From contig NZ_CP139707.1 in NCBI RefSeq assembly GCF_034377145.1, forward strand, positions 1,993,001-2,057,000: DNA of 64,000 nucleotides, written 5' to 3'. This DNA comes from Sulfitobacter sp. OXR-159 (GTDB lineage: Bacteria; Pseudomonadota; Alphaproteobacteria; Rhodobacterales; Rhodobacteraceae). How positions within the stretch are numbered: the stretch's first letter is position 1; the number at the start of each line of letters is the position of its first letter. This document shows, piece by piece, positions 33,134 through 50,817 of the stretch. The notes under the pieces were generated by a model that saw only the letters and a list, made by a program, of their open reading frames with translations, had not been told where the DNA came from and made no database searches. The translations under genes were made by a program, and so were the position numbers.

Positions 33134-33164
33134 AAAAAGCCGGGGCATGCCCCGGCTTTTTTTT
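33134..33164. terminator. Bidirectional intrinsic terminator between pdhC and cysE
   Basis: AGCCGGGG (33138-33145), loop CATG, CCCCGGCT (33150-33157), flanked by an A-run on the left and eight T on the right. It can end transcription in both directions, for pdhC on the plus strand and cysE on the minus strand. Confidence 0.92.
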
Positions 33165-45232: not shown

Positions 45233-46397
45233 TCGCCACCGCAGGCAGCCCCAACAGGGCGCGCTTTTCCGCATCGCTCAAGAACGCCGCTGCCGAGACC
45301 CGCGACCATTGCGCATCCCTCTCGGCCGCCAAGGCCGGCACTTGGTCTAAGTCCGGCTTCAAACTCACCGCCTCACCCAAGTATCCGCTTAACCACTCCG
45401 CCAGCGCAGCCGTCACACGTGTCGCCAGGGGCAGAACGGTCAGACGATAGAACGCCCGATGCGCCTCTTGATAGTTGGCATAGGTCGCATCCCCCTGCAC
45501 CCCAATCAGCATCGGCGGCACCCCAAAGGCCAGCGCAATCTCCCGCGCCGCACTCTCCTTGGTCTTCTGAAATTCCATGTCCGAGGGCGAAAACCCCATC
45601 GGTTTCCAGTCAAGCCCACCTTCCAGCAACATCGGTCGCCCCGCATTGCGCGCGCCCTGATGATGGCTCTCCATTTCGCTCACTAGCCGATCATACTGAT
45701 CCTCACTCAGCTTGCCCTGCCCCTCGGCCCCGCGATAGACAATCGCCCCCGAGGGCCGCGCCGCGTTATCCAGCAGCGCCTTCGACCAACGGCTCGCGGC
45801 GTTATGCACATCCATCGCCATCGCCGCCGCCTGCATCGGGCTAAAGCCATAGTGATCGTCCTGCGGGTGAAAATTCCGAATATGACAAACCGGCGTCACC
45901 GTCCCGCTGGCGTCAAAGCGATGCTTGCGCCCGCCCACCGCATATTCGTAAGCCACCGGCCAACCATCCGCCCCCGGCACCACGCTCATCCGATCTGAGC
46001 GCAGCACATGCAGCTCGACCGGCACCCCCCCCTCGCCGCCCACCGCTTCGACATAGCCATCGCCGCTCAACAGCATCTGGCCATACAGCGCCTCAAGCAA
46101 CTCTGCCCGGCCTTGCCCCGCATTCGGGCGGCGCATCAATTCCATCAGCGGGTGTTCGTCAAAGCGCCGCGCCGCATCCTGCACGACCAGCGGCAAGGCC
46201 GCCGCCGCCTCGGCAATCAACTTGACCGACCGAAACCCCACTGGATTGCCGCAAAAGCCCGAGCGCGTCAGGCTCACACTGTCCCGCGGGCTCCAGGCGA
46301 CACGACCAGAGGTTTGATAGGCCACGACCGGCCCGGTCGCCGAAGCCTTCTGCTCAACCGTCTCAGCCGCGCCGCGCCGTAGAAAATCGAATACCAT
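45222..46397 (-). CDS. GTA gp3, portal protein
   Basis: A 391-residue HK97-family portal. It starts MVFDFLRRGAAETVEQKASA; recognisable parts are GFRSVKLIAEAAAALPLVV, LLEALYGQMLLSGDGYVE, and FQKTKESAAREIALAFGVPPM followed by NYQEAHRAFY. I start at the ATG at 46397, with AGGAGCGACAG upstream; the longer frame would need a TTG start. It forms the DNA entry pore of the head. Confidence 0.94.
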   Translation of the reverse strand: MVFDFLRRGAAETVEQKASATGPVVAYQTSGRVAWSPRDSVSLTRSGFCGNPVGFRSVKLIAEAAAALPLVVQDAARRFDEHPLMELMRRPNAGQGRAELLEALYGQMLLSGDGYVEAVGGEGGVPVELHVLRSDRMSVVPGADGWPVAYEYAVGGRKHRFDASGTVTPVCHIRNFHPQDDHYGFSPMQAAAMAMDVHNAASRWSKALLDNAARPSGAIVYRGAEGQGKLSEDQYDRLVSEMESHHQGARNAGRPMLLEGGLDWKPMGFSPSDMEFQKTKESAAREIALAFGVPPMLIGVQGDATYANYQEAHRAFYRLTVLPLATRVTAALAEWLSGYLGEAVSLKPDLDQVPALAAERDAQWSRVSAAAFLSDAEKRALLGLPAVANDA

Positions 46398-46526
46398 CTG
46401 TCGCTCCTCATTCTGCTCGGCCTTGGCAGCGGCCTGTGCCCCATGCTGCTCGGCGTTGTCAGACTTTCTCAATTAAGTCTTAACGGCCGGGTAACCGACC
46501 GCACGCTCCCCTGCGCAACGCCCGCC

Positions 46527-47939
46527 TTACAGGCTCCGCACCCCCGGGCTGCGCCACTGCGATGCAGGCTCGATCATCAGCTCATGCAGCGCCCAGACCA
46601 GCGCATCGACCCGGTCCGGGCTGCCTTTGCCCTCATACCCCCGCGCCGTCATCAGACACATCTGATCCTCCAATGCATCCAACCCCGGCAAATGGCTCAC
46701 CCGCCCCTGCTCATAAAGCGCCGCCACCGGCTCTGCCCGCGCGACCTTGCCCCGCGCCGCATGCACCGTCTTAAGCGACACCAGCGGATCAACTTGCCGC
46801 AGCACCTCGGAAACCAACTGCCCCCCTTGGTTCACCTCGGCCACCAAACGGTCCGCCCCGTAGCGCGTCATCGCCGCAATCGCCGCCTGCGCCCAGCCAT
46901 TGGGCGTGGCCCCCTGCACCGTGCAATCGGCCAAGACCACCGCCCGCCAATCTTGCGGCGACCCCTTGGTCTGCGCGCCCACCGCAACGATCCCACATTC
47001 ATCCGAGCCCGCCCCACTTGTCGTTGCCGGGTCCAAACCCACCACGATCCGGTCCAGATCCGGCACCTCTCGCACCCGCCCCGCCTCCAACAAAGCAGAC
47101 GTCCACAGCGCCCCCTCTGCATCCGCCAGCAAAACCCCATCCAACTCCTGCCGCCCCAACCGCGTCCCGCGATAGCGCGCCCGCACTTCTTCAAGGAAAG
47201 ACCCTGCCAAGTTCGCCGCATTCGCTTCGGTCGGCGCATGGGTCGTCACCGTCGAGGGCGATTTCAACAACGCCTTCAACACATCCACATTGCGCGGCGT
47301 CGTCGTCACACAGACCTGAGGCCGCTCGCCCAAGCGCAGCGCAAACTGCAACTGGTCCCAAGCCTCCTGCCCGCGCTTCCATTTCGCCAGTTCATCCACC
47401 CAAGCCGCATCAAACTGCGGCCCCCGCAGCCCTTCGGGATCATGCGCCGTATGCACCGTGGCAATCGACCCATTGGGCCAAACCAACCGCTTGCGCGTCG
47501 CCTCCCAATCGGGCCTCCGATCCGGTGGGCTACAGGCCAGTATCCCGCTGTCGCCAAAAATCATCACCTCGCGCACCTGCTCAATGGTCTCCCCCACCAG
47601 CGCCACGCGGCTACACGCCCCCGCATCCAACGGACGGCTCCCCTCAACCTTGCTACGCACCCATTCCGCCCCGGCGCGGGTCTTGCCCGCACCGCGCCCG
47701 CCCATGATCACCCATGTTCGCCAATCCCCCTCAGGCGGCAGCTGATGGTCCAAAGCCCAGAACTCGAACAAAAAAGGGAGAGCCAGAAGCTCTCCCTCAT
47801 CTAGGTCATTCAGAAACTGCGCCTGGGTCTGAGCATCGGCGCAGGCGATCCAGCTTGCACCCGATGTCAGCCCGCGCCTTGTCCATGTCGAGGGCATAGC
47901 CCCCGCGCGCGATTCCAGTTTGTCGGTTTCGACAGTCAT
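46527..47939 (-). CDS. GTA gp2, terminase large subunit
   Basis: A 470-residue packaging ATPase/nuclease. Walker A is GGRGAGKTRAGAEW (about residues 80-93), Walker B-like residues are in FDAAWVDELAKW, and the nuclease domain begins near IVVGLDPATTSGAG. It packages random host DNA into GTA heads. The start is uncertain: ATG 47939 gives a 134-bp overlap with g1, and ATG 47897 would shorten it. Family similarity clearly begins by ADAQTQAQFLNDL, still inside the overlap, so a real overlap exists either way. Confidence 0.94.
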   Translation of the reverse strand: MTVETDKLESRAGAMPSTWTRRGLTSGASWIACADAQTQAQFLNDLDEGELLALPFLFEFWALDHQLPPEGDWRTWVIMGGRGAGKTRAGAEWVRSKVEGSRPLDAGACSRVALVGETIEQVREVMIFGDSGILACSPPDRRPDWEATRKRLVWPNGSIATVHTAHDPEGLRGPQFDAAWVDELAKWKRGQEAWDQLQFALRLGERPQVCVTTTPRNVDVLKALLKSPSTVTTHAPTEANAANLAGSFLEEVRARYRGTRLGRQELDGVLLADAEGALWTSALLEAGRVREVPDLDRIVVGLDPATTSGAGSDECGIVAVGAQTKGSPQDWRAVVLADCTVQGATPNGWAQAAIAAMTRYGADRLVAEVNQGGQLVSEVLRQVDPLVSLKTVHAARGKVARAEPVAALYEQGRVSHLPGLDALEDQMCLMTARGYEGKGSPDRVDALVWALHELMIEPASQWRSPGVRSL

Positions 47940-48150
47940 TCAGCGTGTTCTCCGCTTTCAGGCAATGCGCCAGCAGTCCCGCCACTTTGGACGTATTGCT
48001 GGACACCGCAGTTTCCTTGAGTTCCCCCCCGGACCGGGTCTGTTCCGTCAGACCTTCGATTTCCCGACGCAGCGCGCCGATTGCTTCTTGAAGACCGCGC
48101 AGAATTTCCGCGCTGTCTTCCGTCTCTTGCTCCGGGGTAATGATCGTCAT
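47806..48150 (-). CDS. GTA gp1, terminase small subunit
   Basis: A 114-residue, largely helical protein in the g1 position. A coiled-coil segment (ILRGLQEAIGALRREIEGLT) is followed by a second helical region ending in DKARADIGCKLDRLRR, which resembles the conserved end of GTA gp1. In R. capsulatus gp1 is the small terminase and lacks a classic sequence-specific helix-turn-helix, fitting random packaging. The ribosome site AGAGGTAAAGCG precedes the ATG. A terminator-like hairpin lies in its leader. Confidence 0.88.
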   Translation of the reverse strand: MTIITPEQETEDSAEILRGLQEAIGALRREIEGLTEQTRSGGELKETAVSSNTSKVAGLLAHCLKAENTLNDCRNRQTGIARGGYALDMDKARADIGCKLDRLRRCSDPGAVSE

Positions 48151-48190
48151 CGCTTTACCTCTTGTTGGTTATCCCCAACCGAGCAGACAC

Positions 48191-48224
48191 AAAAAAACGA
48201 CCACCGGGTCACCCCGGGGCCGTT
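48191..48224 (-). terminator. Terminator-like hairpin in the leader of the GTA operon
   Basis: On the minus strand, AACGGCC-CCGGG pairs with CCCGG-(T bulge)-GGTCGTT around a GTGA loop (48196-48224), giving 12 pairs including one G-U. It runs straight into a T-run of seven (48191-48197, two of which pair). It is 46 bp upstream of the g1 start and about 20 bp downstream of the predicted transcription start, so it should stop GTA transcription unless bypassed. It is separate from the mltG terminator. Confidence 0.75.
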
Positions 48225-48250
48225 CGCCCATGTCCTCTAGCGTGTCACAA

Positions 48251-48279
48251 GTCCTACGTTAGACCGTGCGCAAAGTCAA
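48251..48279 (-). promoter_or_regulatory. Candidate promoter of the GTA operon
   Basis: Minus strand TTGACT (48274-48279), a 17-bp spacer, then TAGGAC (48251-48256). The -35 is a 5/6 match and the -10 is weak (3/6), a pattern expected of an activator-dependent promoter. In other GTAs this promoter needs GafA-type activators encoded elsewhere. Confidence 0.5.
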
Positions 48280-48337
48280 GAAAAACTGTGTTAACAATAC
48301 CTTACGCCATCGCGCGGAGAGCCCCGTCGGCAAGCAA

Positions 48338-48363
48338 AAACCCCGCTGTCTCCAGCGGGGTTT
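48338..48363 (-). terminator. Intrinsic terminator of mltG
   Basis: AAACCCCGCTG (48338-48348), loop TCTC, CAGCGGGGTTT (48353-48363). On the minus strand it is followed by TTTTTGC (48334-48340). It lies just 10 bp after the mltG stop and isolates the fab/mltG genes from the GTA operon. Confidence 0.87.
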
Positions 48364-48372
48364 CTAGTCGTT

Positions 48373-49557
48373 TCAGTTACCACCTGTCGAGGCATTCCCG
48401 GCCGCTTCTGCGCCGCGCTCCGCCTCGATCTGACGCCAACGCGCCACGTTGCGGTTATGCTCATCCAAGGTCTCAGCAAAAGCGTGCCCCCCGGTGCCAT
48501 CGGCAACGAAGAAGACGAAATCCGTCTCCGCCGGTTGCGCCGCGGCCATCAGGCTCGCGCGGCCCGGATTTGCAATCGGGGTCGGCGGCAGACCGTCGAT
48601 CACATAGGTGTTCCACGGCGTTTCTGCCCGCAGTTCCGAACGACGCAGCCCGCGGCCCAGCACGCCCTTGCCCTCAGTCACACCATAGATCACCGTCGGA
48701 TCCGTTTGCAAACGCATGCCTTGGTTCAGACGGTTCACGAAAACGCTCGCCACCTGCTCCCGCTCTGCCGCCACACCGGTTTCTTTTTCGATGATCGAGG
48801 CAAGGATCAGGAGTTCCTCCGGCGTCTCAATGGGCAGATCAGGGTCGCGCGCTTCAAAAGCCTGCGCCAACAGCACCTGCTGCGCTGCCGTCATCCGCGC
48901 GATCACCTCGGCGCGGTCATCACCGGGACGCACTTCATAACTGTCTGGCGCAAGGCTGCCCTCAGCGGGGAGGTCTTCAACCTCACCGGTCAATTGCTCG
49001 ACCTGTTTCAGCGCTTCGACAACCTGCCAGCTTGTCACGCCCTCGGCCAATGCCACCCGAAACCGCGTGTCGTTCTTGCTAGAGATTCCGGAGTATGCCT
49101 CAGGGGTCTCTTCCTCACCCGGCGTGAACTCCGCGCGCTCAACAAACCGGCTTGTCACCGGGTCCAACTCGCGGACCTGCACGCTTACGCGGTTCACGCC
49201 CACGCGGTACACAACCTCGGTGCCGCAGGTGCTGGCCCCGCCTTGGGTCACGATATCCACGATCCCCTGCATCGACGTGCCGGGTTGCACAAGAAAACTG
49301 CCCGCTTTCAGGCTGCTCGACTTCTCCTCGTAATCCGCGCCCATGCGAAAGAGCGCGGGCGAAGAGACCGCGCCCTGTTCCTCAAGGCTCTGGCTGACCT
49401 GCCGCATGTTCGAGCCGCGCTCGACCTGCACACAGATCGCCTGCTCCAATGGCCCTTCGGAGACATAGGTCGTCTTGCCCCAGAGGATGATCCCCCCAAG
49501 CAGAAACAGGCCGACCAACAGAAACGTCACGGCGTTAGAAGCGATATGGCGCCACAT
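48373..49557 (-). CDS. mltG: Endolytic murein transglycosylase
   Basis: A 394-residue MltG/YceG-type enzyme. One N-terminal transmembrane helix (about 5-27) is followed by a LysM-like region (QVERGSNMRQVSQSL) and the catalytic domain with LLILASIIEKETGVAAE (catalytic Glu), VFVNRLNQGMRLQTDPTVIYG and PTPIANPGRASLMAA. It cleaves nascent glycan strands and influences their length. It follows fabF with no gap, a common order in alphaproteobacteria. It has its own terminator. Confidence 0.95.
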   Translation of the reverse strand: MWRHIASNAVTFLLVGLFLLGGIILWGKTTYVSEGPLEQAICVQVERGSNMRQVSQSLEEQGAVSSPALFRMGADYEEKSSSLKAGSFLVQPGTSMQGIVDIVTQGGASTCGTEVVYRVGVNRVSVQVRELDPVTSRFVERAEFTPGEEETPEAYSGISSKNDTRFRVALAEGVTSWQVVEALKQVEQLTGEVEDLPAEGSLAPDSYEVRPGDDRAEVIARMTAAQQVLLAQAFEARDPDLPIETPEELLILASIIEKETGVAAEREQVASVFVNRLNQGMRLQTDPTVIYGVTEGKGVLGRGLRRSELRAETPWNTYVIDGLPPTPIANPGRASLMAAAQPAETDFVFFVADGTGGHAFAETLDEHNRNVARWRQIEAERGAEAAGNASTGGN

Positions 49558-50817
49558 TTAGCGGACTTTCCCGAACAGTACCGATGCGTTTGTGCCGCCA
49601 AAGCCGAACGAATTGCTCAACGCCACGTCGATCTTGCGCTCGACCTTTTTGTTCGGTGCCAGATCAATTGGAGTCTCAACCGCTGGGTTATCAAGGTTGA
49701 TCGTCGGCGGCGCCACCTGATCGCGGATCGCGAGCATGCAGAAGATCGCCTCGATCGCGCCAGCAGCCCCCAAGAGGTGCCCGGTCGCGGATTTGGTCGA
49801 AGACATGGTCACTTTGCCCGCCGCATCGCCCATCAGACGCTCGACCGCGCCCAATTCGATGGTATCGGCCATGGTCGAGGTGCCATGCGCGTTGATGTAA
49901 TCGACATCCTTCGGCTCAAGCCCAGCATTCTTCAGTGCGGCCCGCATGGAGCGTTCGCCACCTTCGCCGTCTTCCGACGGTGCCGTGATGTGATGCGCGT
50001 CGCCCGACAGGCCATAGCCCAGCACTTCGGCATAGATCTTGGCACCACGCGCCTTGGCGTGCTCATATTCTTCCAAGACCACGATGCCCGCGCCCTCACC
50101 CATGACAAAACCGTCACGGTCCACATCATAGGGGCGGCTGGCTTTCTTGGGGTCGTCTCCGCGTTTGGTCGACAGCGCCTTGCAGGCGTTAAAGCCCGCC
50201 ATGCCGATCTCGCAAATCGCCGCCTCGGCGCCGCCTGCGATCATCACATCCGCATCGCCGTATTTGATCAGACGCGCCGCGTCACCGATGGCATGCGCCC
50301 CGGTCGAACAGGCGGTCACGACCGAGTGGTTCGGCCCCTTGAAACCGTAGCGGATCGAGACCTGACCCGAGATCAGGTTGATCAACGCGCCGGGCACGAA
50401 GAACGGGCTCACGCGGCGCGGACCCTTTTCGGCCATCATCACGGCGGTATTGGCAATGGAGTTCAACCCGCCGATGCCCGAGCCGATCAACACGCCAGTA
50501 CGCTCTTGATCTTCCTTCTCGGTCGGCAACCACCCCGAATCCTCAACCGCCTGCTGGGCGGCGGCCATGCCGAAGAGAATGAAGGTATCTACCTTCCGCT
50601 GCTCTTTCGGCTCCATGTATTTGTTTGCGTCAAAGGTGCCATCGCTGCCATCGCCCAAAGGCACTTCGCAGGCGTATTGGGTCACCAATTTGCTGGGATC
50701 AAAGCCGGTGATCGGTCCGGCCCCGGATTGCCCATCAAGGATCCGTTTCCAGCTTTCTTCCACGCCGTCCGCGAGGGGGGTAACCAAACCCAAACCCGTT
50801 ACTACAACTCTGCGCAT
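49558..50817 (-). CDS. fabF: Beta-ketoacyl-ACP synthase II
   Basis: A 419-residue condensing enzyme elongating acyl-ACP with malonyl-ACP. It shows VVVTGLGLVTPLADGVEES at the N-terminus, the active-site Cys in VTACSTGAHAIGDA, a first His in INAHGTSTMADTIE and a second in SATGHLLGAAGAIEAIF. I start at the ATG at 50817 after AAGGGGCACTGAG; an upstream ATG adds an unconserved Arg-rich stretch. It is followed directly by mltG. Confidence 0.97.
   Translation of the reverse strand: MRRVVVTGLGLVTPLADGVEESWKRILDGQSGAGPITGFDPSKLVTQYACEVPLGDGSDGTFDANKYMEPKEQRKVDTFILFGMAAAQQAVEDSGWLPTEKEDQERTGVLIGSGIGGLNSIANTAVMMAEKGPRRVSPFFVPGALINLISGQVSIRYGFKGPNHSVVTACSTGAHAIGDAARLIKYGDADVMIAGGAEAAICEIGMAGFNACKALSTKRGDDPKKASRPYDVDRDGFVMGEGAGIVVLEEYEHAKARGAKIYAEVLGYGLSGDAHHITAPSEDGEGGERSMRAALKNAGLEPKDVDYINAHGTSTMADTIELGAVERLMGDAAGKVTMSSTKSATGHLLGAAGAIEAIFCMLAIRDQVAPPTINLDNPAVETPIDLAPNKKVERKIDVALSNSFGFGGTNASVLFGKVR

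Follow-up and report, generated by a model that had tools for sequence, protein, structure and literature searches.

A conserved terminator-like hairpin in the leader of Rhodobacterales GTA operons as a candidate target of GafA-dependent antitermination

In Caulobacter, GafZ lets RNA polymerase past terGTA, a terminator that follows the GTA gene gtaT, with a similar response at rrnB T1; it requires an element between the -35 and -10 of the promoter, GCGCCCG-CTGGCGC, and loss of gafZ cut the expression of a leader reporter without terGTA about 4-fold (PMC11150451). The same authors suggest that GafA of Rhodobacter capsulatus may possess an unrecognised antitermination activity (PMC11150451), and Tran and Le describe predicted GafZ as lacking similarity to known antiterminators. 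At an AlpA-controlled promoter, a -10-like CACGAT at -1 to +5 causes a sigma-dependent pause at which AlpA is loaded, and changing the A or T of this sequence harms antitermination; Q proteins, too, depend on a -10-like sequence within the initially transcribed region (PMC9371919). PA0807, a second AlpA target, has a predicted terminator starting 26 nt after the start, at +26 (PMC7969949).

According to the published model, GafA switches on the archetypal GTA as an activator that acts on RNA polymerase through the omega subunit (PMC9638019). In R. capsulatus, GafA binds a fragment 76-125 nt upstream of g1 (50-bp resolution) that contains the -10 and the start site (PMC6363796), and GafA 1-86 bound specifically to the fragments flanking the -35/-10 fragment on both sides (PMC9638019). 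Deletion of -129 to -100 abolished expression, with the mean signal falling from 14.0 to 2.8 at a background of 3.2. A putative RNA stem-loop was reported in 2014 at -74 to -51 relative to g1, and after deletion of -73 to -46 the fluorescence of a g2-lacZ plasmid reporter stayed, on average, very close to that of the wild type in two replicates with GTA-producing cultures; about 3% of R. capsulatus cells make most of the RcGTA (PMC3999984). Our searches of the open-licence PMC literature turned up neither an experiment on GafA antitermination, pausing or termination in Rhodobacterales nor, beyond the 2014 stem-loop, a report of an early terminator in their GTA leader. Korotaev and others reportedly devoted a 2025 paper to antitermination in the Bartonella GTA.

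Here we analysed the GTA leader of Sulfitobacter sp. OXR-159 in a window of 64,000 nt, the whole stretch of DNA examined (contig NZ_CP139707.1, 1,993,001 to 2,057,000; positions below count from the first letter of the window). The g2 protein is 98% identical to that of Sulfitobacter delicatus, and the cluster on the minus strand runs in the order g1, g2 (large terminase), portal, prohead protease and major capsid, with mltG upstream and ending at 48373; g1 of RcGTA is TerS (PMC9638019). A sequence-only reading of the window had placed a TTGACT-N17-TAGGAC promoter ahead of g1, followed about 20-50 nt past the predicted start by a 12-bp stem-loop with a T-run, distinct from the terminator of mltG. 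Each of these elements was recovered (Table 1), the stem length and coordinates being correct to within one pair: the stem-loop, GAACGGCCCCGGGGTGACCCGGTGGTCGTTT, has 13 pairs, one bulged U and a GUGA loop, and occurs with the same letters in locus L004. With transcription inferred to start at A48243, the stem would begin at about +19 and the T-run end at +53, 40 nt before the g1 ATG. Identity of the early hairpin with the mltG terminator was rejected, as mltG owns a terminator at 48362-48339 and the early hairpin tracks the promoter. The stretch from 48400 to 47700 holds three compact structures in which a stem is followed by a T-run: the mltG terminator, the early hairpin and a hairpin inside g2.

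The -35 and -10 read as a sigma-70 promoter of the kind found in Q/AlpA-type modules, with a spacer of 17 nt here and of exactly 17 nt in 124 of 126 aligned leaders. A simple consensus scan of 46000-50000 returned no sigma-70 promoter, because it demands T as the last -10 base, which is absent here as in 118 of the 126 leaders; the same scan listed the early hairpin in two overlapping forms. Relative to g1 the promoter spans -129 to -101, its -35 starting at the same distance as the R. capsulatus promoter needed for expression, and the hairpin spans -75 to -45. Because promoter and hairpin positions coincide, the R. capsulatus stem-loop is very likely the same element, an equation made by position. 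The R. capsulatus start, placed within 76-125 nt upstream of g1 (PMC6363796), would fall upstream of the hairpin in this window and does not refute the sequence-only reading. Just upstream of the -35, at 48290-48295 on the minus strand, stands GTTAAC, which is present in several related Sulfitobacter leaders as well. We take it to be a possible CtrA half-site. In a few Sulfitobacter-like loci (L008, L023, L040 and L053) the TTGAC of the -35 is lost and the -10 region, ATGCT and hairpin are kept.

For the survey of relatives, sequences upstream of g2 were collected from 80 named loci (80 of 549 confirmed) and from 30 and 100 further loci of the order, with some genomes counted twice, and the 350 nt upstream of g2 were scanned in the 209 scannable loci (L049 being too short). 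Hairpins that reached -18 kcal/mol and were followed by five or more T in seven bases occurred on the coding strand at 155 of the 209 loci, on the opposite strand at 7 and in 10 of 1,045 dinucleotide shuffles; with the cut-off at -15 kcal/mol the counts were 165, 12 and 46. The sequence-only reading had named conservation across Rhodobacterales as a check on its proposal, and most of the loci examined indeed keep the hairpin, with compensatory changes and a conserved T-run. Within the 350 nt scanned, 44 of the 209 loci failed the -15 kcal/mol cut-off with T-run: in some the stem persists but the T-run is shortened or a pair mismatched (for example L063, L084, L106, L127 and L186), and the others have no recognisable early-terminator element. 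Three GTA loci, L128, L160 and L182, have a recognisable promoter region and no clear early terminator, so that nature itself provides cases on which antitermination could be tested.

The -10 and the hairpin are separated by a conserved core, TTGTGnCAnGCTrGaaGAanTGGGC. Loci were admitted to alignment A1 if this motif was matched at 17 or more of its 25 positions and if, in addition, the core start was either followed by a hairpin at 18-30 nt or preceded by TTGA at 27-29 nt; 158 of the 209 passed, and the 126 of these that were less than 90% alike make up A1. Core and -35 conservation counted on A1 is inflated, because 51 loci and L049 were dropped before columns were counted; the hairpin counts given above are independent of this filter.

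Table 1. Features of the GTA leader and first genes in the window. Counts out of 126 refer to alignment A1.
Feature	Position	Strand	Evidence and remarks
-35 element TTGACT	48274..48279	-	TTGAC at 123-125/126 aligned leaders per column, five columns
CGnnCG in -35/-10 spacer, candidate site of the GafA C-terminal (GafZ-like) domain	48265..48270	-	CGnnCG in 95/126; predicted binding
-10 element TAGGAC	48251..48256	-	T at position 1 in 122/126, A at position 2 in 124/126, T at position 6 in only 8/126
-10-like CACGCT (CAnGCT) at the transcript start, candidate sigma-dependent pause signal	48239..48244	-	A in 122/126, T in 126/126
TG dinucleotide, possible RNA end at sigma-dependent pause	48229..48230	-	TG in 119/126, 9-10 nt after the T of CAnGCT
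Early terminator hairpin	48195..48225	-	-22.3 kcal/mol; 11/12 counted pairs with two-sided changes; one strong covariance-model match in the genome
T-run of early terminator, seven T	48191..48197	-	T at its first four columns (alignment columns 134-137) in 119, 119, 125 and 120 of 126
Second hairpin, pairing the g1 ribosome-binding site	48159..48183	-	Leader RNA fold
g1	47806..48150	-	114 aa; ATG at 48150; no Pfam match; small-terminase role from the literature
Terminator-like hairpin in g2 codons, 8 nt past the g1 stop, lineage-restricted	47774..47798	-	Perfect 11-bp stem, -18.1 kcal/mol, T-run
g2, large terminase	46527..47939	-	Pfam Terminase_6N and Terminase_6C

A covariance model, R1, was built from A1, among whose members are 51 of the 80 named loci and 53 of the further 100. 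In the genome of Sulfitobacter sp. OXR-159 it had one strong match, at the GTA promoter (E 4e-26; next 0.1). The core pattern searched by itself with at most one mismatch gave 25 forward and 22 reverse hits there versus 8 and 12 in controls; the pattern alone is unspecific in this genome, whereas the full model is specific. R1 matched 76 of the 80 named Rhodobacterales loci, missing L041, L049 (too short), L089 and L105, and 80 of the 100 further loci at E <=0.01, 76 of these 80 at E <=1e-4. Matches among A1 members are expected because the model was built from them; outside A1, R1 matched 25 of 29 named and 27 of 47 further loci, some of which are near copies of A1 members. Records of Paracoccus denitrificans and P. 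pantotrophus from a plasmid collection, likewise outside A1, though the further genomes of the order may include their kin, matched at E 1.8e-24 and 1.5e-23. They stand in for a named RcGTA record, for which all 257 matching records of a phage collection lay below 60% identity. At class level (143 genomes, stricter filters), R1 matched 18 at E <=0.1; strong matches came only from this family (G000, the genome analysed here, and G002, with G001 at 2.9e-4), and the best match from another family (E 4.8e-4) covered the hairpin part only. None of eight loci of other alphaproteobacterial families with DUF6456 and g2 had a recognisable promoter-hairpin arrangement, and in some of them T-tailed hairpins stood elsewhere upstream. 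One of the eight, G336, carries TTGACT-17-TATAAG-6-CATACT between its DUF6456 gene and g2, with no clear early terminator in that interval; at the remaining seven, neither this promoter order nor an early terminator was found.

The stem covaries. On the sequence-only alignment of 126 leaders, 88.6% of the cells of a 12-pair stem can pair, against 80.4% when shuffled, and two-sided changes occur in 122 cells, against a shuffled mean of 41.6 and with none of 500 shuffles as high, under a control that leaves the kinship among the sequences in place. Sliding the partner column by one lowers pairing to 56-63%. Tested singly, 7 of the 12 pairs exceed every one of 1,000 shuffles and the other 5 do not; the clearest covarying pair is G-C in 54, A-U in 24 and G-U in 18 of 105 leaders, and one stem pair, with 26 two-sided cells, shows compensations from G-C to A-U. 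Run on the alignment without adjustment, RNAalifold predicted a weak consensus structure of no more than 7 pairs and -2.95 kcal/mol, the stem being displaced by gaps and bulges. In Sulfitobacter sp. OXR-159 the first 53 nt of the leader fold 2.6 sd better than shuffles, 2 of 200 of which were as good. An Rfam search of 47700-48700 returned nothing above the gathering score, its six matches, at E up to 5, all lying below it. A riboswitch or leader-peptide attenuator was judged implausible, because a start at A48243 would leave only about 19 nt ahead of the stem.

The hairpin is tied to the promoter and not to the gene behind it. From the start of the -10 to CAnGCT the distance is 12 nt in 106 of the 126 leaders and 11 nt in 19, and the stem follows CAnGCT at 20 nt in 105 leaders and at 19 nt in 19, whereas the distance from the T-run to g1 varies, with a mean of 41.7 and an sd of 18.7. 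The A2 and T6 of CAnGCT are jointly kept in 122 of the 126 leaders. With a start at A48243, CAnGCT would occupy about -1 to +5 and so place a -10-like sequence among the first transcribed bases, as in Q/AlpA-type modules; it resembles the sigma-pause sequence required by the AlpA and Q antiterminators. The TG 9-10 nt after its T may be where the RNA would end at such a pause, a position that we take over from lambda distances. A leader peptide beginning at the ATG of CATGCT was rejected, the third base of CAnGCT being A, C or G in 40 of 126 leaders. Together with the T-run, the stem reads as an intrinsic terminator downstream of a promoter, again as in Q/AlpA-type modules.

The domain shared by GafZ and the C terminus of GafA, DUF6456, is found in 243 of 244 Rhodobacterales genomes, and the protein of this genome, a 384-aa ORF, matches PF20057 with E 5.7e-60 and has a weak helix-turn-helix match near its N terminus. 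By analogy with its homologue GafZ, for which alone the activity has been demonstrated, this GafA-like protein is a putative maker of terminator-resistant RNA polymerase. The N-terminal domain of GafA is DnaA-like. In one locus (L112:723-797) the region upstream of its own gafA-like ORF has TTAAC-N6-GTAAC, the CtrA-type site described for gafA (PMC6363796), and then ATAGGTTGTGAATAAC. This last sequence shares ATAGGTTGTG with TATAGGTTGTG of many GTA promoters. Within ATAGGTTGTGAATAAC, TGTGAATAA is, we assume, DnaA-box-like.

With moderate confidence, we propose that the early hairpin is an intrinsic terminator which polymerase carrying GafA can pass, and that it serves as a fail-safe to back up GafA-dependent initiation. 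The proposal starts from the elements themselves, their conservation, geometry and covariation and the DUF6456 protein; from these we infer the start site, the pause, termination, GafA loading and read-through. GafA would bind the promoter and aid initiation at the weak -10; transcription of the GTA operon would begin at the TTGACT/TAGGAC promoter, and the polymerase would reach the terminator some 20-50 nt on. The C-terminal, GafZ-homologous DUF6456 domain of GafA may load onto polymerase paused at CAnGCT, and the loaded enzyme would be terminator-resistant, as with Q and AlpA. Unmodified polymerase, arriving from leaky initiation or from mltG read-through, would stop at the hairpin and release a short RNA of about 50 nt. 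There would thus be two gates in series, GafA-dependent initiation and a terminator passed by GafA-loaded polymerase only.

The main evidence against the hairpin alone keeping the operon off is the 2014 deletion: since it changed nothing, the R. capsulatus hairpin, on a plasmid, neither restrains measurable basal expression nor is needed for expression, and it is not the sole OFF gate. The result fits two serial gates, because the promoter would hardly fire without GafA and GafA-bearing polymerase would ignore the terminator, so that on a plasmid its removal would change little in either state. The sequence-only reading had seen a candidate antitermination switch here. The conserved hairpin, its near-fixed distance from the promoter and the GafA-like protein speak for antitermination, but the deletion counts against a simple switch, and the word was too strong for an element whose loss left the R. 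capsulatus g2-lacZ reporter very similar to wild type (PMC3999984). Its parallels with other GTAs also needed correction: the Caulobacter terminator that depends on GafZ follows the first gene, gtaT, and is no part of the leader, and the statement that GafA combines both functions draws on homology, antitermination by GafA being a suggestion of the authors (PMC11150451).

The deletion also fits an insulator without antitermination, a leaky terminator that blocks mltG read-through and spurious starts, with GafA an activator only and strong initiation leaking through. The description of GafA as working via omega agrees with this, and redundancy at the border is plausible given the strong terminator already present after mltG. 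An insulator would, however, be better sited upstream of the promoter, and the hairpin is instead fixed downstream of it, with a strong stem and a seven-T tail; the invariant CAnGCT would be left unexplained. We favour antitermination over insulation, because a terminator kept between a promoter and its own genes makes sense only if it can be passed when wanted, and regard insulation as unlikely, while read-through by leakage may occur.

A different assignment of the promoter, which we consider improbable, would affect the pause only and leave the terminator reading unchanged: TGn and CAnGCT would form the true extended -10, TTGAC and TATA would belong to a GafA site, and the start would lie about 10 nt later, near 48232. 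The invariant T of CAnGCT, a TGn before it in 87 of 126 leaders and the rarity of T at position 6 of the upstream -10 (8 of 126) would all be accounted for, but not the fixed 17-nt spacing from TTGAC to TA. The R. capsulatus deletion of -129 to -100, which would spare the place of CAnGCT, abolished expression, although loss of a GafA site could also explain this, and the other-family locus G336 has its elements in the same order as here.

The hairpin could also act as structured RNA and not as a terminator, being a 5' stabiliser, a processing site or a translational element, perhaps together with a second hairpin over the g1 ribosome-binding site. Strong covariation suits any RNA role, and the complete leader of 93 nt is predicted to fold 5.1 sd more stably than its shuffled versions (z -5.1). 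The g1 Shine-Dalgarno is at least half paired in 105 of the 111 leaders with such a motif, against a fraction of 0.73 when the upstream part was shuffled as a control; this second hairpin, between terminator and g1, is present in most relatives with varying sequence. A T-run directly after the stem and as well conserved as the stem points instead to termination, and deletion of the R. capsulatus stem made no measurable difference, which leaves a purely structural role little probability. That the inverted repeat is a DNA site for GafA or another dimer, with the RNA fold incidental, is very improbable: one of the flanking R. capsulatus fragments bound by GafA 1-86 probably covers the hairpin, as we judge from its position (PMC9638019), but protein-DNA recognition does not require compensating pair changes, including G-C to A-U, and both the conserved T-run and the R. 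capsulatus deletion count against it.

The hairpin in g2 codons, which is present in Sulfitobacter sp. OXR-159 and at Ruegeria, Sedimentitalea and Tateyamaria loci among others, is under strong synonymous-site selection in many roseobacters. Among 117 unique relatives, 55 keep 10-11 of its 11 pairs, and for 53 of the 117 unique sequences less than 1% of synonymous variants match the native pairing. This survey could not place 9 of 150 loci, and the hairpin occurs in only 3 of 33 loci of a more distant set. Pairing rises above every shuffle at 2 of the 11 pairs, at codon positions 2 and 3, where amino acid changes are matched on the other arm, and does not exceed every shuffle at the other nine. 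It occupies the place of Caulobacter terGTA, just after the first GTA gene. We do not call it a terminator, because its T-run is uneven among relatives and the hairpin is translated. At the end of the GTA cluster, 33136-33159 holds a symmetrical terminator hairpin with a T-rich tail on both strands.

More broadly, and tentatively, Rhodobacterales GTAs may retain a complete phage-late-promoter unit, comprising a sigma-pause loading site, a promoter-embedded antiterminator site and a widespread early terminator, with GafA as a Q/AlpA-like processive antiterminator fused to an activator. Commitment to GTA production would then be proofread after initiation, and in one large lineage the hairpin in the terminase codons would recheck the polymerase at the g1/g2 border. 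If so, the activator must carry RNA polymerase past a stop before cell-killing particles are made. A conserved terminator in the initially transcribed region next to a Q/AlpA-like pause element is a precise alternative to the omega model, testable on short templates and with point mutations; it would unite the Rhodobacter and Caulobacter systems, and the leader could serve as a sequence marker for GTA promoters in genomes.

Compared with R. capsulatus RcGTA, promoter and stem-loop stand at the same places relative to g1, but the available parts of the 2014 report do not term the stem-loop a terminator or report its conservation (PMC3999984). Caulobacter GafY/GafZ shares a related GTA operon and a DUF6456 regulator, and its needed element between -35 and -10 has a candidate counterpart here in CGnnCG, which resembles the left half, GCGCCCG. 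The Caulobacter system differs in its terGTA of three 150-bp repeats past the first gene, its 250-nt leader, its -35 AATCAT and the upstream action of IHF and GafY, and no early hairpin is mentioned in the parts of that paper available (PMC11150451). AlpA at alpBCDE and PA0807 of Pseudomonas aeruginosa, which drives lysis in a subset of cells, has, as proposed for the GTA leader, a site between -35 and -10, the -10-like CACGAT (alpB) and an intrinsic terminator before the first gene (PMC7969949, PMC9371919); AlpA and GafA are different proteins, and pausing, termination and antitermination in the GTA leader are predicted from its sequence. The Q regulators of phages lambda, 21 and 82 are phage proteins, and they act at a late-gene promoter with a binding element and a -10-like pause sequence to give terminator-resistant polymerase (PMC9371919). 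Taken together, the regulator, spacer motif, pause-like element and terminator of the Rhodobacterales GTA leader resemble a module of the Q/AlpA/GafZ type.
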